Below, piece by piece: positions 208-64,000 of a DNA stretch of 64,000 nucleotides. Location of the stretch: contig JACRPC010000043.1 in the NCBI GenBank assembly GCA_016214125.1, positions 1 through 64,000 of the forward strand, in the 5' to 3' direction. Numbering within the stretch: the stretch's first letter is position 1; every line of letters begins with the position of its first letter. Position numbers and translations under genes: made by a program. This DNA is from Rhodospirillales bacterium (GTDB taxonomy: Bacteria; Pseudomonadota; Alphaproteobacteria; Rhodospirillales; WMHbin7). Under the pieces are notes generated by a model that made no database searches, was not told the origin of the DNA, and saw only the letters and a program-made list of their open reading frames with translations.

Positions 208-669
208 TTAGCGCCCCTTGCCGCCCAGATTGAGCGATCCCGACTGGGCGAAGGGCGTGCTGGTCCGCGTCATGCCCTGGATGAAGGCGGTGCCCTTGAG
301 GTCGTAGGAAAAATCGCGGCCCTCGCTCAAGGATAGGATCTGGCGGAAGACGTCGAGGGTGGAGACCGAGGCCTTGGCGGTGGCGTAGGCCTCGCCCAGG
401 CGCGGCACGGTGACGCTTTCGTTGCTGAAGCCGCGGGCGAAGGGCTGGCCGTTCAGCCCCAGCTCGAAGCGGAAGCCGTCGACGGGCAAGTTGAACTCGT
501 TGGGATTGCGGAAATGCAGGACCACATTGACCCGCTGTTCGAACAGCCCGGCCTGCTCGAAGGCCAGATCGTTCAAATAAACCTCGGGCGGCAGGTAGGT
601 CTCGAAATAGGCGCAGCCGGCGGGGCCCAGGCCCAGCGCCAGCAGCACCAACGCCATCCATCGACGCAT
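208..669 (-). CDS. LEA type 2 (WHy-like) lipoprotein
   Basis: A 153-residue protein. The start at 669 was chosen because it gives a clean lipoprotein signal: MRRW, a hydrophobic stretch, then LGPAGC with the lipid-bearing Cys at residue 19. An upstream in-frame start at 807 would add 46 residues with no signal character. The mature part carries the LEA2/WHy-type beta-sandwich pattern, with a VVLHFRNPNEFNLPVDG segment and a following glycine-rich strand. It should be a membrane-anchored periplasmic protein. LEA2 proteins are linked to stress tolerance and lipid-associated roles, but the specific job here is unknown. It is divergent from the MarR gene at 770. Confidence 0.8.
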   Translation of the reverse strand: MRRWMALVLLALGLGPAGCAYFETYLPPEVYLNDLAFEQAGLFEQRVNVVLHFRNPNEFNLPVDGFRFELGLNGQPFARGFSNESVTVPRLGEAYATAKASVSTLDVFRQILSLSEGRDFSYDLKGTAFIQGMTRTSTPFAQSGSLNLGGKGR

Positions 670-769
670 GCCGCACCTCTGTGTAAGATCGCCACCATCC
701 TGCCCAAGCCGGGCGGGAATGACAAGGCGGGGCGGGGCCGATGCGCGGTTCTTTTTGCCCTCCGGATCA

Positions 770-1342
770 ATGAACAGGGAGCCCGGTTCGAGCGTGGCCG
801 TGACCAAAGCGAAAGCCCAACGCCCAAGCGACGCCGCCGTCCGGACGCCGGGGTCGGCCGCGTCCGCTTTCGATCTCGACCGCTTCCTTCCTTATCGGCT
901 TTCCGTGCTGTCCGAGGCGGTGAGTCGCCGTCTGGCCCACGACTATGCCGACAAGTTCAATCTGACGGCGATGGAATGGCGGGTGATGGCGGTGCTCACC
1001 TGCTACCAGCCGCTGTCGGCCAACGGCATCTGCGCCCGCACCAACATGGACAAGGTTCAGGTGACCCGGGCGGTGAGCCGCCTCTTGCGCGCCGCGCTGG
1101 TGGCCAGGGCCGAGGACCCCAAGGATCGGCGCTACATCAGCCTGTCGCTCACCGCGAAGGGCCGGCGCATCTGCGAGCGGATCATCCCGCTGGCGCGCGC
1201 CCGCGAGGCCGAGATGCTGGGAGTGCTCGACGACGCCGAGCGCCGGGCGCTCGACGCCATCCTGGTCAAGCTGATGGACAAGGTCTGCGGCGGCGCGCCC
1301 GGCCGAAACGGCCGCAACGGGGTGGCGAAGCGGGGGGATTGA
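770..1342 (+). CDS. MarR family transcriptional regulator
   Basis: A 190-residue winged-helix protein. After a low-complexity N-terminal 35 residues, the MarR core is clear: a dimerisation helix (FDLDRFLPYRLSVLSEAVSR), LTAMEWRVMAVL, the recognition region NMDKVQVTRAVSRL, and the wing with the DPKDRRYISLSLTAKG signature. The ATG at 770 was preferred over earlier in-frame starts at 668 and 719 because the upstream part has no family likeness. The -35 hexamer of the downstream TRAP promoter overlaps its stop codon, and a perfect 16-bp palindrome sits in that promoter. It is therefore inferred to be the local repressor of the TRAP/flavoprotein/RubisCO-like cluster. Its ligand cannot be read from sequence. 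Confidence 0.9.
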   Translation: MNREPGSSVAVTKAKAQRPSDAAVRTPGSAASAFDLDRFLPYRLSVLSEAVSRRLAHDYADKFNLTAMEWRVMAVLTCYQPLSANGICARTNMDKVQVTRAVSRLLRAALVARAEDPKDRRYISLSLTAKGRRICERIIPLARAREAEMLGVLDDAERRALDAILVKLMDKVCGGAPGRNGRNGVAKRGD

Positions 1343-1367
1343 CAACAGTTTCATTTGAAACTATTCT
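1339..1367 (+). promoter_or_regulatory. TRAP operon promoter with embedded MarR-type operator
   Basis: TTGACA (1339-1344) and TATTCT (1362-1367) are separated by exactly 17 bp. The spacer and the first base of the -10 hold the perfect inverted repeat AGTTTCATTTGAAACT (1347-1362). MarR dimers typically bind palindromes of this size, and a protein bound here would block RNA polymerase directly. Binding by the neighbouring MarR protein is inference. Confidence 0.7.
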
Positions 1368-1473
1368 GCCCCCCGAGCGCGCCGCCAAGGCCCGGGCGCT
1401 CGGGTGGGGGGACGAACCGGCCGAACAGGCGATCCGCGCATAAGAAATTGCGGACCAGGGGAGTGAACGGACA

Positions 1474-2067
1474 ATGTGGGCCAGCGAAGCCCCATCCAGG
1501 CGCCCGGGCGGATGGGCGCGGCTTGGCCGTGTGGGCCGCCGCGTCGTCGAGGCCGTCTTGGTCGCCGGCCTTGCCGTGATGGCCGTCTTGGTCTTCGGCA
1601 ATGTCGTGCTCCGCTACGCCTTCAATTCCGGCATCACCTTGTCCGAGGAACTTTCGCGCCTGATCTTCGTCTGGCTGGTGTTCCTGGGCGCGATCCTGGC
1701 CGCGCTTGAGCACGCGCATATCGGCGTCGATCTCGTCGTCCGCCGCCTGCCCAAGGCGGGCAAGAAGGCCTGCGTGGCGCTGGGCGGCATCCTGATGCTG
1801 ATCGTCTGCCTGATGCTGGCCTGGGGCGGCTGGAAGCAGATGCGGGTCAATTTCGACAATCTGATGCCGGTGGCCGGGCTGCCCTATGCCGTGCTTTACG
1901 CCGCCGTGTTCGTGGGTGGGCTGGGTCTGGCGCTGGCGGTGGTGGCCAATCTGGTGCTGGCGCTGGTTCGCCCGCAAAGCGACGATGATCTCATCTTGGT
2001 TCGCGGCAGCGAAGAGGAAGCCCGGGATGACGCGGCGGTCCGAAGCGGATCGGAGAGGGGGCGATGA
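1474..2067 (+). CDS. dctQ: TRAP transporter small permease (DctQ family)
   Basis: A 197-residue membrane protein with four hydrophobic segments and the DctQ pattern: VFGNVVLRYAFNSGITLSEELSR, then FVWLVFLGAILAALEHAHIGVDLVV. It is the small membrane subunit of a tripartite ATP-independent periplasmic transporter and associates with the large permease. A GGGAGTG ribosome site precedes the ATG at 1474. Its stop overlaps the next start by 4 bp (ATGA), so it is translationally coupled to dctM. The charged C-terminal tail is cytoplasmic-looking. Substrate class is not predictable from this subunit. Confidence 0.92.
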   Translation: MWASEAPSRRPGGWARLGRVGRRVVEAVLVAGLAVMAVLVFGNVVLRYAFNSGITLSEELSRLIFVWLVFLGAILAALEHAHIGVDLVVRRLPKAGKKACVALGGILMLIVCLMLAWGGWKQMRVNFDNLMPVAGLPYAVLYAAVFVGGLGLALAVVANLVLALVRPQSDDDLILVRGSEEEARDDAAVRSGSERGR

Positions 2068-3341
2068 CCGTCACCGTCTTTCTCGGCTCTCTCCTGGGCG
2101 CCATGGCGATCGGCATGCCGATCGCCTTCGCCCTTCTGGTCTGCGCTCTGGCCCTGATGCTGTTCCTGGGCGAGACCGACGCCCAGATCCTGGCTCAGAA
2201 CGTGGTCAACGGCGCCGACAATTTCGTCCTCATGGCGGTGCCCTTCTTCATCCTGGCCGGCGAGCTGATGAACAGCGGCGGGCTTTCCCGGCGGATCGTC
2301 GACATGATCCTGGCCTGGGTCGGTCACATCCGCGGCGGCCTTGGCTATGTGGCGATCCTGGCCGCCGTCATCATGGCCAGCCTCTCGGGCTCGGCGGTCG
2401 CCGACACCGCCGCCCTGGCGGCGCTCTTGATTCCGATGATGCGCAACGCCGGCTACGACGTGCCGCGGGCCTCGGGGCTGATCGCCGCCGGCGGCATCAT
2501 CGCCCCGGTGATTCCGCCCTCGATCGGCTTCATCCTTTTTGGCGTCATCGGCGGCGTCTCGATCACCAAGCTTTTCCTGGCCGGCATCGTGCCCGGCGTG
2601 CTGATGGGCGTCTCCCTGGTCGCCACCTGGTGGTGGGTGGCGCGCGGCGAAGCCCAGGCCGCCCGTCCCCCAGTGCCTCTGGCCGAGCGGGTGCGGGCGC
2701 TCTTGGCCGGCGGCTGGGCGCTGATGATGCCGGTCATCATCATTGGCGGCCTGAAGACCGGCGCCTTCACGCCGACCGAATCCTCGGTGGTGGCGGCGGC
2801 CTACGCCCTGTTCGTCGGCCTTGTCATCTACCGCGAGCTGACGCCGGCCGCCATCTACCGCGCCTTCCTGACCACGGCCAAGATCTCGGCGGTGGTGATG
2901 TTCCTGGTCGCCGCCGCCGTCGTCTCCACCTATCTGATCACCATCGCCGACATCCCGGCGCAATTGACGGCGGTGCTGCGGCCGCTGGTCGGCACGCCGA
3001 CTCTTTTGATGCTGGCGATGATGGGCGTCGTGCTCGTGGTCGGCACCGCGCTCGATTTCATTCCGACGGTGCTGATCCTCACCCCGGTGCTGCTGCCCTT
3101 GTGCAAGGAGTCCGGCATCGATCCGGTCTATTTCGGCGTTCTGTTCATCATCAACAACGCCATCGGCATGATCACCCCACCGGTGGGCGTGGTGCTGAAC
3201 GTGGTCAGCGGGGTGGCGAACGTGTCGTTCGAGAAGGTGGTGGTCGGCGTCTGGCCCTTTCTGGTGGCCGAGACCGTCGTCTTGCTCCTGCTCATTTTGG
3301 TGCCCGAACTCGTGACCGTGCCGCTCAAATGGATGTTCTGA
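2064..3341 (+). CDS. dctM: TRAP transporter large permease (DctM family)
   Basis: A 425-residue polytopic protein with about a dozen hydrophobic helices. DctM hallmarks are present: VPFFILAGELMNSGGLSRRIVD, MASLSGSAVADTAAL and a GGIIAPVIPPSIGFILFG block, with a mirrored second half (NNAIGMITPPVGVVLNV). It forms the Na+-driven elevator domain that moves substrate released by the periplasmic binding protein. The start overlaps the dctQ stop, and the gene is 37 bp upstream of dctP. All three TRAP parts are intact and in the usual Q-M-P order. Confidence 0.95.
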   Translation: MTVTVFLGSLLGAMAIGMPIAFALLVCALALMLFLGETDAQILAQNVVNGADNFVLMAVPFFILAGELMNSGGLSRRIVDMILAWVGHIRGGLGYVAILAAVIMASLSGSAVADTAALAALLIPMMRNAGYDVPRASGLIAAGGIIAPVIPPSIGFILFGVIGGVSITKLFLAGIVPGVLMGVSLVATWWWVARGEAQAARPPVPLAERVRALLAGGWALMMPVIIIGGLKTGAFTPTESSVVAAAYALFVGLVIYRELTPAAIYRAFLTTAKISAVVMFLVAAAVVSTYLITIADIPAQLTAVLRPLVGTPTLLMLAMMGVVLVVGTALDFIPTVLILTPVLLPLCKESGIDPVYFGVLFIINNAIGMITPPVGVVLNVVSGVANVSFEKVVVGVWPFLVAETVVLLLLILVPELVTVPLKWMF

Positions 3342-3378
3342 TGCATCCCAACCCATCACCGTTAAGGAGGAGTCGCCA

Positions 3379-4377
3379 ATGAAAATCATGACCGCAACCG
3401 CCGTGATCGCCGCCGCGCTGCTGGCGGCGCCGATCGCCCAGGCCGAGCCCCTGCAGGCCAAGTTCAGCGTCACCTTGCCGCAGCCGACCCACCAGGGATT
3501 CGGCGGCGAGCGATTCGCCGAAATCGTCAACGCCAAGGCCCAGGGGCGGATCGCCATCAAAGTGTTCTACGGCGCCCAATTGGGCAACGACGTCCAGGTG
3601 ACGTCGGCGCTTCAGGGCGGAACCATCGAGATGGTGGTGCCGCAAACCACCACCTTGGTCGGCATGGTCAAGGAATACGCGGTTCTCGATCTGCCGTTCC
3701 TCTTCGCCAACGAAGCCGAGGCCGAGGCGGTGCTGGACGGGCCGGTCGGCAAGGCTCTGCTGGCCAAGCTGCCGGAAAAAGGACTGGTCGGTCTCGGCTA
3801 TTGGGAGAACGGCTTCTTCAACACGACGACCAGCAACCGGGCGATCGCCCGGGTCGAGGATTTCCAGGGCCTCAAATACCGCGCCATCCAGTCGCCGATC
3901 TCGATCGAAACCCTGAAGGCGCTGGGCGCCAATCCGGTGCCGCTGGCGGTGCCCGAGGTCTATCCGGCGCTGGAGACCCGGACGGTCGACGCCCAAGGCA
4001 CGCCGACCGCGGTGGTGGCGGCCTTGAAGTTCTACGAGGTGCAGAAGTTCTTCTCGGCCACCCGCCATTCCTACGGCGCCTTCATTCCCCTGGTGTCGAA
4101 GAAGTTCTGGGACAAGCTCACCCCGGCCGATCAGAAGATCATGCTCGACGCCGCCCAGGAGACCGGGGCGCACCAGCGCAAGGTGGCCCGCGAGGCGGCC
4201 GCCAAGGCGCTGAAGCTGATCGGCGAAAAGGGCTTGGCGATCAACGAGGTCTCGCCGGCCGAATTCGAACGCATGCGGGCCAAGGTCCAGCCGATCTACG
4301 ACCGCTTCGGCGCCGACGTCGGCCCCGAACTGATGCAGATGACCAACGCCGAACTGGCCCGCGTCCGCAAGCGTTAG
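3379..4377 (+). CDS. dctP: TRAP transporter substrate-binding protein (DctP family)
   Basis: A 332-residue periplasmic receptor. Residues 1-22 form a Sec signal peptide ending in PIAQA. The mature protein has the DctP fold signatures: the YGAQLGND strand-turn, a GYWENGFFNTTTSNR region, and GLKYRAIQSP followed by NPVPLAVPEVYPALETRTVDA, which includes the arginine region that usually binds a substrate carboxylate. A very strong AAGGAGGAG ribosome site precedes the start, consistent with the binding protein being made in excess. An organic acid ligand is likely by family. A link to methylthio-sugar or sulfur compounds would be an inference from the neighbours only. Confidence 0.94.
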   Translation: MKIMTATAVIAAALLAAPIAQAEPLQAKFSVTLPQPTHQGFGGERFAEIVNAKAQGRIAIKVFYGAQLGNDVQVTSALQGGTIEMVVPQTTTLVGMVKEYAVLDLPFLFANEAEAEAVLDGPVGKALLAKLPEKGLVGLGYWENGFFNTTTSNRAIARVEDFQGLKYRAIQSPISIETLKALGANPVPLAVPEVYPALETRTVDAQGTPTAVVAALKFYEVQKFFSATRHSYGAFIPLVSKKFWDKLTPADQKIMLDAAQETGAHQRKVAREAAAKALKLIGEKGLAINEVSPAEFERMRAKVQPIYDRFGADVGPELMQMTNAELARVRKR

Positions 4378-4393
4378 GGGCCGCCCAACCGAC

Positions 4394-4423
4394 CGCCCCG
4401 GCGCCCCGACGGGCGCCGGGGCG
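4394..4423 (+). terminator. Strong GC hairpin after dctP
   Basis: A perfect 13-bp inverted repeat (4394-4406 / 4411-4423, loop CGAC) lies 16 bp after the dctP stop. No T-tract follows directly, so it may act as a transcript-stabilising or attenuating hairpin rather than a full terminator. It would partly uncouple the TRAP genes from the flavoprotein downstream. Confidence 0.6.
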
Positions 4424-4442
4424 CGTGGGCTGCGGATTTCTG

Positions 4443-4482
4443 TTGTGCCCGCCGACCGGACCGGTAAATATTTGCAATTGCA
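4443..4482 (+). promoter_or_regulatory. Candidate promoter and palindrome before the flavoprotein gene
   Basis: TTGTGC (4443-4448) and TAAATA (4465-4470) are spaced by 16 bp. They are followed immediately by the perfect palindrome TGCAATTGCA (4473-4482), near the expected transcription start. The palindrome differs from the MarR operator at 1347, so another regulator could act here. This is pattern-based only. Confidence 0.4.
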
Positions 4483-4499
4483 CGTAACGGAGACGAGTC

Positions 4500-5933
4500 A
4501 TGCGCATTTTCGAACCCTTGAACGTCAACGGCATGATCCTGCCCAACCGGGTGATGGTGCCGGCGATGGTCACCCGCCTGTCGGGCGAGGACGGCCAGGT
4601 CAACCAGCCGATCATCGACCGCTATGTTCGTTACGCCCAGGGCGGCGCCGGCCTGATCGTCGTCGAGGCGATGGCGGTCCACAAGGGCAAGGCGGGGCCG
4701 CTGTTGCGCATCTCCGACGATGAATTCATTCCCGGCCTTCGCCGCCTCACCGACGCCATTCACGCCAACGGTCCCTCGAAGGTGGTGCCGCAGATCATCC
4801 ACTTCCTCAAGGCGGCGCGCTCGGGTTGGCGGCAAACGCTCGACATGCTTTCCGACGCCGAGATCGATTCGATCATCGAGGATTTCGGCGACGCGGCGGT
4901 CCGGGCCCGCGAGGCCGGCTTCGACGGCGTCGAGCTGCACGCCGCGCACGGTTACACGCTCTCCTCGTTCCTGTCGCGCCGCAATCCAAGGCGCGACGCC
5001 CATTCCGGCCGCACCATGGAAGGGCGTCTGCACATGCTGGGCCGGGTGGTCGAGAACGTGCGCAAGAAGGTGGGCAAGGACTGGCCGGTCTGCGCCCGCT
5101 TCGTCGCCGAGGAATGCATCAAGGACGGCTACACGGTGGAAGAAGGCAAGCTGATCGCGCTGCGCATGGCGCAATTGGGCATCGACCTCATTTCGATCTC
5201 GATGGGCGGCAAGCACGAAGACGCCGAACACAAGCCGGGCGAGATTCCGCACGGCTATTCCGGCTATTCCGGCGACCGCTGCATGCCGGGCGACTGGTAC
5301 CCCAAGCTCTTGAACGCCCACATCGCCGAAACGGTGCGCCGCTTCCTCGACGAGCGCGGCTTCACCAAGACTCCGATCGCCATCGCCGGCAAGATTTCCG
5401 AACCCGAAGACGCCGAGCGGCTGCTGGCCGAGCGCAAGACCGACGTCCTGGCCATCGCCCGCCAGATGCTGGCCGATCCCGATTGGCCGGTGAAGCTTAA
5501 GCGCGGCGAGGCCGACCGCATCATCCGCTGCACCTATTGCAACGTCTGCAAGAAGCTCGATGGCGAGCACAAGGACGTCATCTGCTTCCTTTGGCCCAAG
5601 GGCTCGAAGCAGGCGCCGCCCGACCGCCCCGATCTGCCGGCGCCCGCCTGGGGCGCCGACAAGGGCAACCTCACCATCGAGTTCGCCGACGGCACCGCCA
5701 AGCTGAAATGGAGCGCCGCCCAGGGCCAGATCGCCGGCTACGAGGTGATGCGCGCCGACGACGAGGGCACCGTGCACATCATGGACACCGTCAAGGGCAC
5801 CCAGGCGGCCGACCGCCTGCTGATGGCCGGGCGGCGTTACCGCTATTATGTGCGGGCCCGCGATGAGGTCGGACATGTCAGCCCGCCCTCCAACACCGTG
5901 CTGCTCGAACCCGAGCTGGTCGCCGCCGAATAG
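4500..5933 (+). CDS. Old-Yellow-Enzyme-like FMN/Fe-S oxidoreductase with C-terminal FN3-like domain
   Basis: A 477-residue protein. Residues 1-340 are an NADH:flavin oxidoreductase TIM barrel with the family's GVELHAAHGY motif (His147, His150) and a C-terminal FMN phosphate region (DVLAIARQMLADPDWP). Next come Cys344, Cys347, Cys350 and Cys362, spaced like the [4Fe-4S] ligands of the 2,4-dienoyl-CoA reductase / trimethylamine dehydrogenase branch. The FAD/NADPH-binding domains that normally follow in that branch are missing. Instead residues about 388-470 look like a fibronectin type III sandwich (IAGYEVMRADDEG, YYVRARDEVGHVSPPSN). Electron input must therefore come from another protein. It is preceded by a GGAGA ribosome site and sits between the TRAP genes and the RubisCO-like gene. 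The substrate is unknown. Confidence 0.85.
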   Translation: MRIFEPLNVNGMILPNRVMVPAMVTRLSGEDGQVNQPIIDRYVRYAQGGAGLIVVEAMAVHKGKAGPLLRISDDEFIPGLRRLTDAIHANGPSKVVPQIIHFLKAARSGWRQTLDMLSDAEIDSIIEDFGDAAVRAREAGFDGVELHAAHGYTLSSFLSRRNPRRDAHSGRTMEGRLHMLGRVVENVRKKVGKDWPVCARFVAEECIKDGYTVEEGKLIALRMAQLGIDLISISMGGKHEDAEHKPGEIPHGYSGYSGDRCMPGDWYPKLLNAHIAETVRRFLDERGFTKTPIAIAGKISEPEDAERLLAERKTDVLAIARQMLADPDWPVKLKRGEADRIIRCTYCNVCKKLDGEHKDVICFLWPKGSKQAPPDRPDLPAPAWGADKGNLTIEFADGTAKLKWSAAQGQIAGYEVMRADDEGTVHIMDTVKGTQAADRLLMAGRRYRYYVRARDEVGHVSPPSNTVLLEPELVAAE

Positions 5934-5978
5934 CGCTCCGGGGTGGCGTTTGGGCCGGTCCCTCCCTATTCTTGGGGG

Positions 5979-7091
5979 ATGGACCGTCTGACCGCCATCT
6001 ATCACCTCGCCGCCGAGGCCTCCGAGATCGAGGCCCGCGCCCATGCGCTGGCCGTCGAACAGAGCGTCGAGATGCCGCTGGCGGCGATCGCCGCCCCCCA
6101 TGTCCATGCCGAGATCGTCGGCCGGGTGGATTCGATCGAAACCGATCCCCAAGGCGGCTTTGTCGTCCGGCTGGCGCTTGCCGTGGCCACCACCGGCTTC
6201 GAGATCGGCCAGCTCATGAACATGCTGTTCGGCAACAGTTCGATCCAGGAGACGGTGCGGCTCCTCGATGTCGAATTGCCCGCCTCATTGCGCGACGCCT
6301 TTCCCGGGCCGCGCTTCGGCATCGAGGGCTTGCGCCAGCTCACCGGCGCCCAAGACCGTCCGCTTACCGCCACCGCGCTTAAGCCGCAGGGGCTGGACGC
6401 CGCCAGTCTGGCGGCCTTGGCCGGCGCCTTCGCCCAGGCCGGCATCGACGTCATCAAGGACGATCACGGCCTGGCCGACCAGGCCTACGCGCCCTTTGCG
6501 GACCGGGTCGCCGCCTGCCAGACGGCGATCGATCGGGCCAACCGCGAAACCGGAGGGCGCACGGTTTATGCGCCCAGCCTGTCGGGCGGGCCGAAGGCTT
6601 TGACCGAGCAGATCCGCATCGCCAAGGATCAGGGTGTGCGGATGGCGATGCTGACCCCGATGCTCAAGGGCTTGGCGCTCACCCAGGAATTGGTGCGCGA
6701 CCATCTCGAGGTGCCGGTCTTGGGCCATCCGGCGATGGCCGGGGCATCGCGCATCGCGCCGCCGCTTCTTCTGGGCAAGCTCTTTCGTTTGGCTGGCATC
6801 GACGCCGTCATCTATCCCAATCATGGCGGGCGCTTCAGCTACGCGCCGGCCACCTGCCGGGCCTTGGCCCAGGCGGCGCGGGCGCCTTGGGGCGGCCTGC
6901 GCCCCAGCCTGCCGGTGCCGGCGGGCGGCATGAGCGTCGAGCGGGTGGCCGAGATGGTGCAATTCTACGGCCCCGACACCATGTTGCTGATCGGCGGCAA
7001 TCTCTTGGAGGCGGGGCCGGCGATGCCCGACAAGGCCCGCGCCTTCGTGGCCGCCGTCGCCCGGGCGGGCGCCATGGAGGGACGGGGATGA
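5979..7091 (+). CDS. RubisCO-like protein (form IV), likely 5-methylthioribulose-1-phosphate isomerase
   Basis: A 370-residue RubisCO-superfamily protein. The ATG at 5979 was chosen; an ORF-extending start at 5943 adds only 12 atypical residues. The barrel retains the KPQG lysine (Lys135, equivalent to RubisCO Lys175) and the Lys160-Asp161-Asp162 metal/carbamate motif, but the next residue is His163 where true RubisCO has Glu. The PAGGM segment near residue 320 replaces the CO2/O2-enzyme equivalents. It is too short and too divergent to be a carboxylase. In Rhodospirillum rubrum such a protein isomerises 5-methylthioribulose-1-phosphate to 1-methylthioxylulose-5-phosphate in the methylthioadenosine-isoprenoid shunt. 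The cupin that overlaps its stop (ATGA) supports the same role here. Confidence 0.85.
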   Translation: MDRLTAIYHLAAEASEIEARAHALAVEQSVEMPLAAIAAPHVHAEIVGRVDSIETDPQGGFVVRLALAVATTGFEIGQLMNMLFGNSSIQETVRLLDVELPASLRDAFPGPRFGIEGLRQLTGAQDRPLTATALKPQGLDAASLAALAGAFAQAGIDVIKDDHGLADQAYAPFADRVAACQTAIDRANRETGGRTVYAPSLSGGPKALTEQIRIAKDQGVRMAMLTPMLKGLALTQELVRDHLEVPVLGHPAMAGASRIAPPLLLGKLFRLAGIDAVIYPNHGGRFSYAPATCRALAQAARAPWGGLRPSLPVPAGGMSVERVAEMVQFYGPDTMLLIGGNLLEAGPAMPDKARAFVAAVARAGAMEGRG

Positions 7092-7540
7092 GCGAGCGTG
7101 ACAATCCGGTGCGGCGCTTTGCCGATTATCGCTGGCAAGGTGTCGAGCTGCTGGCCTACAAGGCCGAGGGCGAGGCGCCCTTCCAAGCCATCACCCGCCA
7201 GCTTCTCTTCCAGGCCCCCGATCTGGCGGGCGAGCTGCGCTATTTCGAGATCGCGCCGGGCGGCCATTCCACCTTGGAGCGCCATGAGCACCGCCACGCC
7301 GTGCTGATCCTGCGCGGGCGCGGCCGCTGCCTGGTGGGCGATCGCCTGCACGCGCTCGACACCCACGATCTGGTCGAGGTGCCGCCGCAGACTTGGCACC
7401 AGTTCCGCGCCGATGCCGGCCAGGAGCTGGGCTTTCTCTGCCTGGTCAATGCGAAGCGCGACAAGCCGGTGCTGCCCGACGCCCAGGACCTCAAGAACCT
7501 TCGAAGCGATCCCGAAATCGCCGCCTTCATCCGCACCTGA
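7088..7540 (+). CDS. Cupin, probable 1-methylthioxylulose-5-phosphate sulfurylase
   Basis: A 150-residue single cupin domain. The metal site is visible: His66, His68 and possibly His70 in the first cupin motif, and His104 in the second (PPQTWHQF), with a Gln/Thr environment rather than the usual Glu. It starts inside the stop codon of the RubisCO-like gene and is thus co-translated. In R. rubrum a Mn-dependent cupin acts directly after the RubisCO-like isomerase, removing the methylthio group to give 1-deoxyxylulose-5-phosphate and methanethiol. The pairing makes the same assignment likely, but it rests on context plus fold, since small cupins are hard to assign by themselves. Confidence 0.75.
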   Translation: MSERDNPVRRFADYRWQGVELLAYKAEGEAPFQAITRQLLFQAPDLAGELRYFEIAPGGHSTLERHEHRHAVLILRGRGRCLVGDRLHALDTHDLVEVPPQTWHQFRADAGQELGFLCLVNAKRDKPVLPDAQDLKNLRSDPEIAAFIRT

Positions 7541-7565
7541 GAATCATCGTGAGGAGGACACATCG

Positions 7566-8192
7566 ATGAGCGCCGCGCTCGATTATCTGCTCAAGGCCCG
7601 CCCCGAGGCGATGGGCGCCTATTTCGCCTTCTTGAAGGATGCGGGCACCCGCCTCGATCCCAAGACCCGCAATCTCATTTCGGTGATCACCAAGGTCAGT
7701 TCGCAGACCGAACGCGGCTTGAAGCAATATCTGAGCCGCGCGCTGCGCGAGGGTTGCAGCGCCGAGGAGGTGATCGACGCCCTCTTGATGGCCTTTCCCG
7801 CTTTGGGGCTGGCGAAGATCATCTGGGCGGTCGATGTCATCCTTGCCATGAACCTGCCGGAATTTTCGCCCGAGCGGCTGGGCGAGGCGGCGCGCTGGCG
7901 CAAGGTGGCGCCCGCGAAAGCGGCGCCGCTCAACAAGACGGTGCGGATCGAGGCCGAGGGCAAGGCGCTGTTTCTCCACCGAACCGCCAAGGAAGTCCGC
8001 GCCTTCGACAGCCGCTGTCCGCATCAGGGCACCGACATGCCGGAATTGGCGCTCACCGGCGCCAAGCTCGTCTGCCCCAAGCACAAATGGGTGTTCGACG
8101 CCAAGAGCGGCGCCTGCATCGGCAAAGGCCACGCCCCGATGAAAAGCTATCCGGCGAAGATCGAGAAGGGATCGGTGCTGGTCGCCTGGTGA
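7566..8192 (+). CDS. Carboxymuconolactone-decarboxylase-like / Rieske [2Fe-2S] fusion protein
   Basis: A 208-residue two-domain protein. Residues 1-100 are an all-helical CMD/AhpD-like domain (DPKTRNLISVITKVSSQTERG, then AEEVIDALLMAFPALG). It lacks the CxxC pair of AhpD, so it should not be a peroxidase-type thiol enzyme. Residues 122-208 are a Rieske ferredoxin domain with Cys151-x-His153 and Cys170-x2-His173. A GAGGAGG ribosome site precedes the ATG at 7566. It follows the cupin by 25 bp and is probably the last gene of the unit. It could carry electrons to or from the flavoprotein at 4500, or act on a product of the sulfur branch. That role is inferred from position only. Confidence 0.8.
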   Translation: MSAALDYLLKARPEAMGAYFAFLKDAGTRLDPKTRNLISVITKVSSQTERGLKQYLSRALREGCSAEEVIDALLMAFPALGLAKIIWAVDVILAMNLPEFSPERLGEAARWRKVAPAKAAPLNKTVRIEAEGKALFLHRTAKEVRAFDSRCPHQGTDMPELALTGAKLVCPKHKWVFDAKSGACIGKGHAPMKSYPAKIEKGSVLVAW

Positions 8193-8408: not shown

Positions 8409-9275
8409 TCAGCCGGCCGGATCGGCGGGGGGCCGCCAGGCTTTGGTGATGTCGCCTTGCTCGAAGGTCTGCGGCTGGGCCGGGCACATGCCGCACACGG
8501 TTTCGGCTTCCCGTGTGAAGAAATCGCGCATTTCCGCTTCGGTGGCCTCGACCGAAATCGGCTGGTAGGCAAGATAGGGCTGCCATTCCGGCACGTCCCG
8601 AAGGCCGAAGCGGTCGGCCACTTTGCCCAGGAAGGCGAGCGGCGGGCATTTCCAAATCCGGCCGTCATGCAAGGTGCGGCAGAGCTTGCCGATGCAGCCC
8701 TCCCACGAGGCCTCGGGCGAACCGTCGGCAAAGGGGCGCATCGCCGGTCCCTCGCCCCGATAGGTGCGGGTGAAGCTGTGCTCGGCGGTTCGCAGGATCA
8801 TCTCGAATCCATGCGCGAGGCGCGCCTCTTCGATGGCAAGCAGCGCCTGGTTGAAGCGTTCGAGATAGGCAAAATCGCGGTAGGAATGGACGCTGACATC
8901 AAGGCGGGTGCCGGTTTCGGCGATCGCCGCCAAGAGGTCGGGCCGGCGCGCCAGGCCGAGCCCGTTGCTGATCAGGATGCGCCTGGCATTGGGCCAAAGA
9001 AGCTGGGCAAGCTTCAGATACGCGACCAGATCGGGATTGAGGGCCGGTTCGCCGCCCAGCATCGAGAAGGTTTCCGGAATAAGCCGGGTCGCCCAGGCGC
9101 GCAGCCAGTCGCCGCCTTGCCGGAAGGCGACGTGACCCTTGAGGCCGTAATTGGAATAGTGGGTGCAGCCCCGGCAATGAAGATCGCAGGCGAAGGCCAG
9201 ATCCATTTCCAGGAACGGCACCACCAGAACGCGGTGGATGGCCGGTTGGCCGGCATTCCCATTCGTTGGCGCCAT
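8409..9275 (-). CDS. Radical SAM protein
   Basis: A 288-residue radical S-adenosylmethionine protein. The cluster-binding motif is Cys30-x3-Cys34-x2-Cys37 (ACDLHCRGCTHY), followed by the MLGGEPALNPD strand-turn typical of the GGE motif and an ISNGLGL segment. Additional cysteines in CIGKLC...KCPP and CGMCP near the C-terminus resemble an auxiliary-cluster (SPASM/twitch-like) region. The substrate is not recognisable. The CxxxCxxC plus an HYSNYG segment is seen in small radical SAM proteins found near polysaccharide or peptide genes, but no such partner is adjacent. It appears to be a stand-alone gene, convergent with the sulfur cluster and followed by rpoH on the same strand. Confidence 0.85.
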   Translation of the reverse strand: MAPTNGNAGQPAIHRVLVVPFLEMDLAFACDLHCRGCTHYSNYGLKGHVAFRQGGDWLRAWATRLIPETFSMLGGEPALNPDLVAYLKLAQLLWPNARRILISNGLGLARRPDLLAAIAETGTRLDVSVHSYRDFAYLERFNQALLAIEEARLAHGFEMILRTAEHSFTRTYRGEGPAMRPFADGSPEASWEGCIGKLCRTLHDGRIWKCPPLAFLGKVADRFGLRDVPEWQPYLAYQPISVEATEAEMRDFFTREAETVCGMCPAQPQTFEQGDITKAWRPPADPAG

Positions 9276-63005: not shown

Positions 63006-63288
63006 GGCCGAGCAGCCCCGCGCGCTGGGCGCCAACATCTGTGGCGTGCTGATCCACGCTCGGCCCGAGCGCTTGGATGCCGTGCGCCGGGCGCTGGGTG
63101 GTCTGGCCGGGGTCGAAATCCACCAGGAGGCGCCCGACGGACGCCTCGTCCTCACCGTCGAGGACACGCCCACAAGCTGGGCGGCCGAAACCATCAAGCG
63201 GTTCCACGAGATCGAGGGTGTGCTGTCGGCCGCCCTCGTCTATCACCATTGCGATGAATCCCAAGAGCGAGGGGAGGTCTCCTTATGA
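62977..63288 (+). CDS. napD: NapD, periplasmic nitrate reductase chaperone
   Basis: A 103-residue Nap[42 protein letters not shown], and [13 protein letters not shown]. It binds the NapA twin-arginine signal peptide before export. The start is TTG at 62977 with AAGGAG six bases before it, overlapping napF by 29 bp. It overlaps napA by 4 bp. Confidence 0.92.
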
Positions 63289-64000
63289 AGCTGTCCAGGC
63301 GTGATTTCATCAAGGCCAATGCCGTTGCCGCCACCGCGGCCGCCGCCGGCCTCGCCCAACCCAAGCCCGTGCAGGCCGCCGAGAGCGACATCCGCTGGGA
63401 CAAAGGCGTCTGCCGCTTCTGCGGCACCGGCTGCGGCGTTCTGGTCGGCGTCAAGGACGGCCGCGTGGTGGCCACCCAGGGCGATCCCGACGCCCCGGTC
63501 AATCGCGGCCTCAACTGCATCAAGGGCTACTTCCTCTCCAAGATCATGTATGGGGAGGACCGCATCACCAAGCCGCTTCTGCGCATGAAGAACGGCAAGT
63601 TCGACAAGAACGGCGAATTCGCCCCCGTCACCTGGGACCAGGCCTTCGACATCATGGCCGAGAAGTGGAAGGCGGCGCTGAAAAAGCACGGCCCCACCGG
63701 CATCGGCATGTTCGGCTCGGGCCAGTGGACGATCTGGGAAGGCTACGCGGCGGCCAAGCTCTTCAAGGCCGGCTTCCGCTCGAACAACATCGATCCCAAC
63801 GCCCGGCACTGCATGGCCTCGGCGGTGGCGGGCTTCATGCGCACCTTCGGCATCGACGAGCCGATGGGCTGCTACGACGATCTCGAGCACGCCGACACCT
63901 TCGTGCTCTGGGGCTCGAACATGGCCGAGATGCACCCGATCCTCTGGTCGCGCCTGACCGACCGGCGCCTGACCCATGAGGGCTGCAAGGTCGCCGTGCT
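63285..64000 (+). CDS. napA: Periplasmic nitrate reductase catalytic subunit NapA (partial, runs off the window)
   Basis: The first 238 residues of the molybdopterin nitrate reductase. A twin-arginine signal ([20 protein letters not shown]) ends near residue 32. The [4Fe-4S] ligands are Cys43, Cys46, Cys50 and Cys78, and the Mo ligand is probably Cys176 in ARHCMASAV. It reduces nitrate to nitrite in the periplasm, with NapB/NapC downstream outside the window. No napE or napK precedes napF. Confidence 0.97.

Follow-up and report, generated by a model that had tools for sequence, protein, structure and literature searches.

The locus considered here lies at positions 770–8192 of contig JACRPC010000043.1 from a Rhodospirillales bacterium (assembly GCA_016214125.1), within an analysed stretch of 64,000 nucleotides that is referred to below as the window. 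It carries a MarR-family regulator, a TRAP importer, an old yellow enzyme-like (OYE) flavoprotein with a fibronectin type III-like (FN3-like) C-terminus, a RubisCO-like protein (RLP) with an adjoining cupin, and a fusion of a carboxymuconolactone decarboxylase (CMD) domain with a Rieske domain. The locus is likely a composite one, in which an ordinary gene pair of the methylthioadenosine (MTA)-isoprenoid shunt stands among unrelated neighbours. Its features are the following.

770–1342, plus strand: MarR-family regulator (PF12802, MarR_2, 41.2 bits, cut-off 27)
1339–1367, plus strand: sigma-70-like promoter TTGACA-17-TATTCT 5' of dctQ (10 of 12 matches), overlapping the MarR stop codon
1344–1365: palindrome AACAGTTTCA-TT-TGAAACTATT within the dctQ promoter, candidate MarR operator
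1474–2067, plus strand: DctQ, TRAP small permease (PF04290, 110 bits)
2064–3341, plus strand: DctM, TRAP large permease (PF06808, 405.5 bits; TIGR00786, 454.2 bits)
3379–4377, plus strand: DctP, TRAP solute-binding protein (PF03480, 274.7 bits)
4394–4423, plus strand: perfect 13-bp GC hairpin 3' of dctP, lacking a T-run
4500–5933, plus strand: OYE-like flavin mononucleotide (FMN) protein with an FN3-like C-terminus and without a FAD/NADPH domain (Oxidored_FMN, 158.8 bits)
5979–7091, plus strand: RLP, predicted 5-methylthioribulose-1-phosphate 1,3-isomerase (RuBisCO_large, 72.3 bits)
7088–7540, plus strand: cupin, predicted 1-methylthioxylulose-5-phosphate methylsulfurylase (Cupin_2, 43.8 bits; 3jzv, 193 bits)
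7566–8192, plus strand: CMD-Rieske fusion protein (Rieske, 51.4 bits; CMD, 39.4 bits)

The eight genes that an initial annotation of this DNA had claimed are all found at the place and on the strand it gave, and the family scores of the locus proteins exceed the curated cut-offs (DctM, DctP, Oxidored_FMN, RuBisCO_large, Cupin_2, Rieske, CMD and MarR_2). The ATGA coupling it described for RLP and cupin is likewise borne out, with the cupin start at 7088 overlapping the RLP stop codon. For the RLP, the ATG at 5979 is the most probable start codon rather than the GTG at 5943, since the RLPs of a sister genus open with the same MDR-type sequence. An Rfam search of the window gave no match, and foreign origin is not marked by base composition, the locus genes having 64–70% G+C and the window 66.8%.

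The RLP can be placed in the 5-methylthioribulose-1-phosphate 1,3-isomerase group, with that activity predicted. It scores 391 bits against the structure 3qfw, to which it is 52.4% identical, and at most 151 bits against the other 59 of the best 60 chains (95 in all). It shares the motif KDDH with 3qfw, the corresponding motif in MtnW (2oek) and 4nas being KDDE, and KDDH is present in all 25 aligned RLP relatives, including two that fall outside the 3qfw group. In a maximum-likelihood tree (IQ-TREE, 362 columns) the window RLP clusters with those of the sister genus, with 3qfw and with the other RLPs of Alphaproteobacteria (support 99), although the branch that unites the window RLP with the sister genus carries no support value; outside this group lie L019 and L020, then MtnW and 4nas, together with the organism's own RubisCO. 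The structure 3qfw is taken here to be RLP1 (RPA2169) of Rhodopseudomonas palustris, although the literature search did not confirm the code. The adjoining cupin is predicted to be of the methylsulfurylase type, its best structure match being 3jzv (193 bits), which bears the PDB name Rru_A2000. Passages of PMC5893883 and PMC4958253 assign 5-methylthioribulose-1-phosphate 1,3-isomerase activity to R. palustris RLP1 and Rhodospirillum rubrum Rru_A1998, and the step that follows to the cupins RPA2170 and Rru_A2000. The initial annotation had assigned the pair to these two steps correctly, and the scores, the tree and the match to Rru_A2000 strengthen the assignment; it had named a position of the RLP outside the isomerase clade as a result that would refute its overall reading, and the protein instead groups with 3qfw, away from MtnW.

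The remaining enzymes of the shunt are encoded elsewhere in the genome (98.9% complete), where profile searches placed MtnP at 89310–90020 (315 bits, cut-off 275) and MtnA at 92643–93641 (404 bits, cut-off 279) of a contig designated C10, and three O-acetylhomoserine sulfhydrylases also score above cut-off. The absence of the phosphorylase and the isomerase, which had been pointed out at the outset, thus holds for the neighbourhood but not for the genome. Locus numbers in passages of PMC5893883 and PMC4958253 set mtnP/mtnA apart from RLP/cupin both in R. rubrum (A0361/A0360 and A1998/A2000) and in R. palustris (RPA4821/RPA4820 and RPA2169/RPA2170), and their absence from the neighbourhood is therefore ordinary. 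As a separate observation, mtnA on C10 is directly followed by a gene for a 685-residue fusion of an aldolase with a short-chain dehydrogenase (locus L038, 9595–12743; PRK08324.1-6, 1050 bits, cut-off 639). This protein could be a one-piece dihydroxyacetone phosphate (DHAP) shunt, combining methylthioribulose-phosphate aldolase and alcohol dehydrogenase; the alcohol dehydrogenase of that shunt is called unknown in a passage of PMC5893883, and no title among the open-licence PubMed Central (PMC) matches listed deals with such a fusion.

Whether the pair and its neighbours belong together can be judged from related genomes. At E 1e-40, 17 of the 385 class genomes sampled have an RLP homologue, as do 11 of 100 closer relatives at E 1e-30, the organism's own genome being included in each count. 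Flanks from all but one of the 16 other class genomes were compared, along with 10 stretches from the relatives, giving 25 loci in 24 genomes (one genome, G387, contributing two pieces); linkage was counted by open reading frame (ORF) or tblastn scans, and gene calling missed real genes in some loci. The cupin adjoins the RLP in 22 of the 25, at most 182 bases away. Among the three others, L032 ends just past the RLP and L036 and L037 contain the two outlying RLPs, and the cupin also adjoins the RLP in a further class genome outside this set, on a contig of 3,159 bases (L013). The rest of the cluster shows no conserved linkage in the loci compared. CMD-Rieske, MarR and DctQ genes each occur in none of the 25; distant DctM/DctP genes (30–37% identity) occur in three and an OYE gene (28% identity) in one, close TRAP and close OYE genes being found in none. 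Conversely, neither RLP nor cupin is present in any of 76 CMD-Rieske loci, and RLP, cupin, CMD-Rieske and TRAP genes are all missing from 19 loci around relatives of the OYE-FN3 protein. An association of RLP with OYE-FN3 at the level of genomes found no support: besides the organism's own, 2 of 384 genomes have both, on different contigs (G231 and G202; Fisher p 0.17).

Just upstream of the cluster lies a LEA-like gene (window 208–807, minus strand), and a relative of it at 48–50% identity stands within about 4 kb of the RLP-cupin pair in all four sister-genus genomes (L051–L054), whereas the remaining 21 RLP loci lack it. TRAP, OYE and CMD-Rieske genes are absent beside the pair in those four loci. 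The LEA-like gene and the pair have thus been kept together in the sister genus without the extra genes, for which reason the pair is probably an old resident, the other genes having arrived later or been lost in the sister genus.

The importer appears to be a matter of its own. Promoter-like sites number four in 12 kb, against a mean of 1.3 in shuffles. The core of the palindrome in the dctQ promoter, searched with a pattern derived from the site itself, occurs once in 64 kb at up to two mismatches (shuffle mean 0.03). As the sole operator-like palindrome sits in this promoter and the 13-bp hairpin lies between dctP and the OYE gene, the arrangement suggests that MarR controls the importer only; the hairpin is a possible end or attenuation point of the importer transcript, and the importer is probably a transcription unit of its own. 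A single MarR regulon over all genes was accordingly discarded, and the description of the whole as a MarR-controlled cluster is supported for the importer only.

By sequence, the best structure matches of DctP are 4P47 and 7BBR (CxaP). In the 4P47 group, according to a passage of PMC11668362, Arg152, Arg173 and Asn213 (4P47 numbering) hold the substrate carboxylate. All three residues are kept in 4P47, 7BBR and four relatives, while the window DctP has F147, R168 and T208 at the aligned positions, only R168 being retained. With two of the three residues replaced, the ligand may be unusual. Close DctP relatives are scarce (4 of 371 other class genomes at E 1e-80, 43–46% identity). In two plasmid records examined out of 504 with similar DNA, the TRAP genes adjoin genes of shikimate metabolism (Azospirillum) and genes for RraA and a sugar kinase (Variovorax), with a methylthio link in neither. 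An importer of MTA or methylthioribose is not supported, though the altered ligand residues leave room for these as for other ligands.

The OYE gene belongs to a family with a distinct architecture. Four cysteines (C344, C347, C350 and C362) occupy the place of iron-sulfur ligands, and they are kept in all 17 aligned relatives (16 other loci and a second copy in the same genome), an alignment that left out L157 and L174, which the gene caller had missed. The initial annotation was right in calling this a flavoprotein without a FAD/NADPH domain, as matches of the FadH/BaiCD type end by residue 368, but it missed the FN3-like domain that follows. The latter scores just under the Pfam cut-off (fn3, 22.7 bits, cut-off 25) and is nonetheless present in all 16 of the 17 relatives that are not truncated by a contig end. 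The architecture is common to relatives at 53–62% identity, found in 19 of 385 class genomes at E 1e-60, own included. The second own copy (C42:1057-2466, locus L158) lies near a short-chain dehydrogenase-like gene and a 4-hydroxy-2-oxovalerate aldolase gene (559 bits). Around the 19 loci fetched (18 other genomes and this second copy), the recurrent neighbours, counted from called genes only, are short-chain dehydrogenases (14 loci), benzoate-CoA-ligase-like (13) and acyl-CoA-dehydrogenase-like proteins (10), followed by MarR regulators (8) and salicylyl-CoA 5-hydroxylase (3). One representative of each was compared with NCBIfam, and only the hydroxylase scored above cut-off (1302 bits, cut-off 1078), the ligase reaching 347 of 375 bits. 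As genes for CoA-ligases, dehydrogenases and short-chain dehydrogenases recur beside it, the family would serve to degrade some acid, aromatic or otherwise, by way of its CoA ester. No open-licence PMC paper was found on old yellow enzyme together with fibronectin type III in Alphaproteobacteria.

The CMD-Rieske protein points in another direction. At E 1e-20 it is found only in the organism's own genome among the 385 of the class, and a GTDB scan returned 76 loci, titled betaproteobacterial (54), gammaproteobacterial (15), alphaproteobacterial (4), and other or unplaced (3). In a tree, the window protein falls among sequences from Betaproteobacteria, at a moderate support of 84. Its near absence from the class, the predominance of betaproteobacterial loci and this grouping together suggest that it was acquired laterally. 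All but one of the loci match as CMD-Rieske (75 of 76), L136 matching in the Rieske part only. Over 29 aligned relatives (51–68% identity) the window protein is full length in both domains, and an alignment of 74 sequences, its own included, shows no variation at the Rieske ligands C151, H153, C170 and H173 or at a further cysteine, C184. AhpD-like, thiol-active CMD proteins are marked by a CxxC pair. No such pair occurs in the CMD domain of these 74 sequences, the only cysteine there being C64, in 45 of them, and the window domain lacks this mark of the AhpD-like type. For the AlphaFold model (mean pLDDT 89.4, pTM 0.62), the best 50 of 716 PDB matches are Rieske ferredoxins and Rieske oxygenase domains, with no hint of a substrate, and a search of plasmid proteins gave only matches below 60% identity, those of full length among the matches listed lying at about 24%.

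Across Proteobacteria, this apparently undescribed CMD-Rieske family is associated with dsr, apr and soe-type genes. By tblastn, 50 of the 75 loci have at least one core sulfur-oxidation marker within about 10 kb, or 43 when stricter markers are required; among 42 control loci, drawn from the RLP and OYE sets of other genomes, the corresponding numbers are 1 and 0. AprA (1072 bits), DsrK (604), DsrE2 (214) and CysG (613) are named above NCBIfam cut-offs, and TauE by Pfam; the ORFs read as SoeA, SoeB, SoeC, SQR, AprB, AprM, TusA and DsrC are presumably these proteins, judged in part by position, and those of them put to NCBIfam did not match above a cut-off. The gene cysG is near the CMD-Rieske gene in 18 of the 75 loci (L061–L135), and in L121 the latter lies 3' of cysG, inside a dsr-apr run. 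Among 50 CMD-Rieske genomes taken from the 75, 34 have a DsrA above cut-off, against 51 of 309 genomes of the organism's own phylum, own included (Fisher p 4e-13), or 39 against 52 of 309 when partial genes of at least 150 bits are also counted (p 2e-17), in both cases between sets that differ in make-up and contain related, non-independent genomes. The link has limits, as 25 of the 75 loci have no core marker and 11 of the 50 genomes no DsrA of at least 150 bits. In Hylemonella (L107) the CMD-Rieske gene stands behind cysG in an apparent nitrate assimilation run and DsrA is lacking, and one genome (G344) has DsrA without CMD-Rieske. No paper joining carboxymuconolactone decarboxylase or Rieske with soeABC appears among the open-licence PMC matches listed, and none of the sulfur-oxidation/dsrAB matches listed there includes "CMD domain".

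The genome itself contains DsrA (573.7 bits, cut-off 392.85), with relatives of DsrK (70%) and DsrC (73%) adjoining dsrA on C10, 18.7 kb from mtnA; TusB/DsrH and TusC/DsrF score above cut-offs, and soe-type genes at 30–40% to the SoeA and SoeB markers lie on the same contig. Within 50 kb of the CMD-Rieske gene in the window none of 16 sulfur-oxidation markers occurs, the dsr and soe-type genes being on another contig than this locus, unlike the 50 family loci that have such genes within about 10 kb. The sole match in the window, at 63366, is to the start of napA, for periplasmic nitrate reductase (63285–63998; 473 bits for the in-window part). A TauD-family dioxygenase gene stands beside dsr genes both in this genome (L187, 12839–13711) and in a Woeseiaceae genome (L121, 7308–8180). 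Between the cluster and rpoH, a gene for a radical SAM protein of 288 residues lies on the minus strand (8409–9275; 39.5 bits), with no specific NCBIfam family above cut-off.

Taken together, the genes present, their orthologues, the shunt enzymes encoded on other contigs and the conserved RLP-cupin pairing favour a composite locus, and the row can be read as neighbours thrown together because the importer and the two redox genes are not found with the pair in related genomes. With MtnP and MtnA, the cell itself would produce the substrate of the RLP, the RLP would isomerise 5-methylthioribulose-1-phosphate to 1-methylthioxylulose-5-phosphate, and the cupin, with glutathione, would yield both 1-deoxyxylulose-5-phosphate, destined for isoprenoids, and a methylthio adduct. 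The methanethiol of this adduct would be recaptured by O-acetylhomoserine sulfhydrylase. The MarR-regulated TRAP importer, the OYE-FN3 iron-sulfur flavoprotein and the CMD-Rieske protein would be later arrivals round the resident pair.

Several observations weigh against a composite origin or against parts of it. The four genes from OYE to CMD-Rieske share one direction and are spaced by 45, −4 and 25 bases; a single transcript may therefore span them, a hint of shared use. L019 and L020, outside the 3qfw group and without an adjoining cupin, also carry KDDH, and the motif alone is therefore no proof of isomerase function. The dctP-OYE gap folds with a z of only −1.94 against shuffles, and the hairpin, which lacks a T-run, was not called by a terminator scan. 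The four alphaproteobacterial-titled loci carry CMD-Rieske at 56–58% identity, which makes the source of the gene uncertain. Finally, the samples included no further genome of the same genus, and the comparison stops short of genus level.

The alternative that fares best is a working operon of the OYE, RLP, cupin and CMD-Rieske genes, with the last of these acting on the sulfur that the cupin step releases as methanethiol or methylthio-glutathione and so tying MTA salvage to sulfur oxidation. It is unlikely, though the family's association with dsr, soe-type and apr genes fits it, as do the dsrA, DsrK/DsrC and soe-type genes on the contig of mtnP and mtnA, and the release of methanethiol from methylthio-glutathione is put forward as a proposal only in a passage of PMC5893883. 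The 76 CMD-Rieske loci without RLP or cupin speak against it, no thiol chemistry can be read from a CMD domain lacking CxxC, and the arrangement is that of one genome. A more specific form is rather improbable, namely that methanethiol or methylthio-glutathione from the cupin step gives up electrons or sulfur to the CMD-Rieske protein, with or without the OYE protein, so that MTA sulfur is oxidised and not only recycled to methionine. The pathway proposed by the initial annotation, in which the TRAP system imports a methylthio compound that the OYE, CMD-Rieske, RLP and cupin proteins process together, is highly unlikely. Shared direction, tight spacing from the OYE gene on and a DctP with F147 and T208 in place of R and N would suit it, but the comparison of RLP neighbourhoods that it called for shows no conserved co-occurrence (25 RLP, 19 OYE-FN3 and 76 CMD-Rieske loci), the importer is probably transcribed separately, the OYE and CMD-Rieske families accompany other genes elsewhere, and the RLP substrate would be made intracellularly by MtnP and MtnA. 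No open-licence PMC paper was found that joins RubisCO-like protein, TRAP transporter and Rieske. A reading of the RLP as a paralogue acting on some other compound, either an MtnW-type enolase or the D-apiose enzyme OiaX, can be dismissed almost entirely, as its NCBIfam matches to OiaX (92 of 700 bits) and to the mtnW models (192 of 409 and 139 of 514 bits) lie far under the cut-offs, and the KDDH motif, the tree and the cupin pairing are contrary to it.

A composite locus adds one more genome with a complete gene set for the MTA-isoprenoid shunt, here in a dsr-bearing organism, and the relatives compared do not share the linkage of its RLP-cupin pair with an importer and redox genes. The pair itself is familiar from purple bacteria. 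What was not to be expected is the tie between CMD-Rieske and sulfur oxidation of the Dsr type; the family could be an accessory of Dsr or siroheme-dependent metabolism, which offers a testable lead.

Among known systems, the locus is closest to the MTA-isoprenoid shunt as it occurs in R. rubrum and R. palustris, with RLP and cupin of the same groups adjoining each other, mtnP/mtnA elsewhere in the genome and O-acetylhomoserine sulfhydrylases present. It differs in that the OYE-FN3 gene and a TRAP operon precede the pair and CMD-Rieske follows it, and in being known from genes alone. The OYE-FN3 protein resembles the iron-sulfur OYEs of the FadH/BaiCD type in its FMN barrel, HxxH motif and four cysteines, and departs from them in carrying an FN3-like domain instead of the FAD/NADPH domain (best NCBIfam score 204 of 825). 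While 4P47 and CxaP (7BBR, with a sugar acid bound) are the closest structures to DctP, they retain the carboxylate-binding residues of which it has lost two. Like the CMD-Rieske family of Burkholderiales and other Proteobacteria, the window protein is full length with invariant Rieske ligands, whereas its gene adjoins an RLP-cupin pair rather than sulfur-oxidation genes or cysG.

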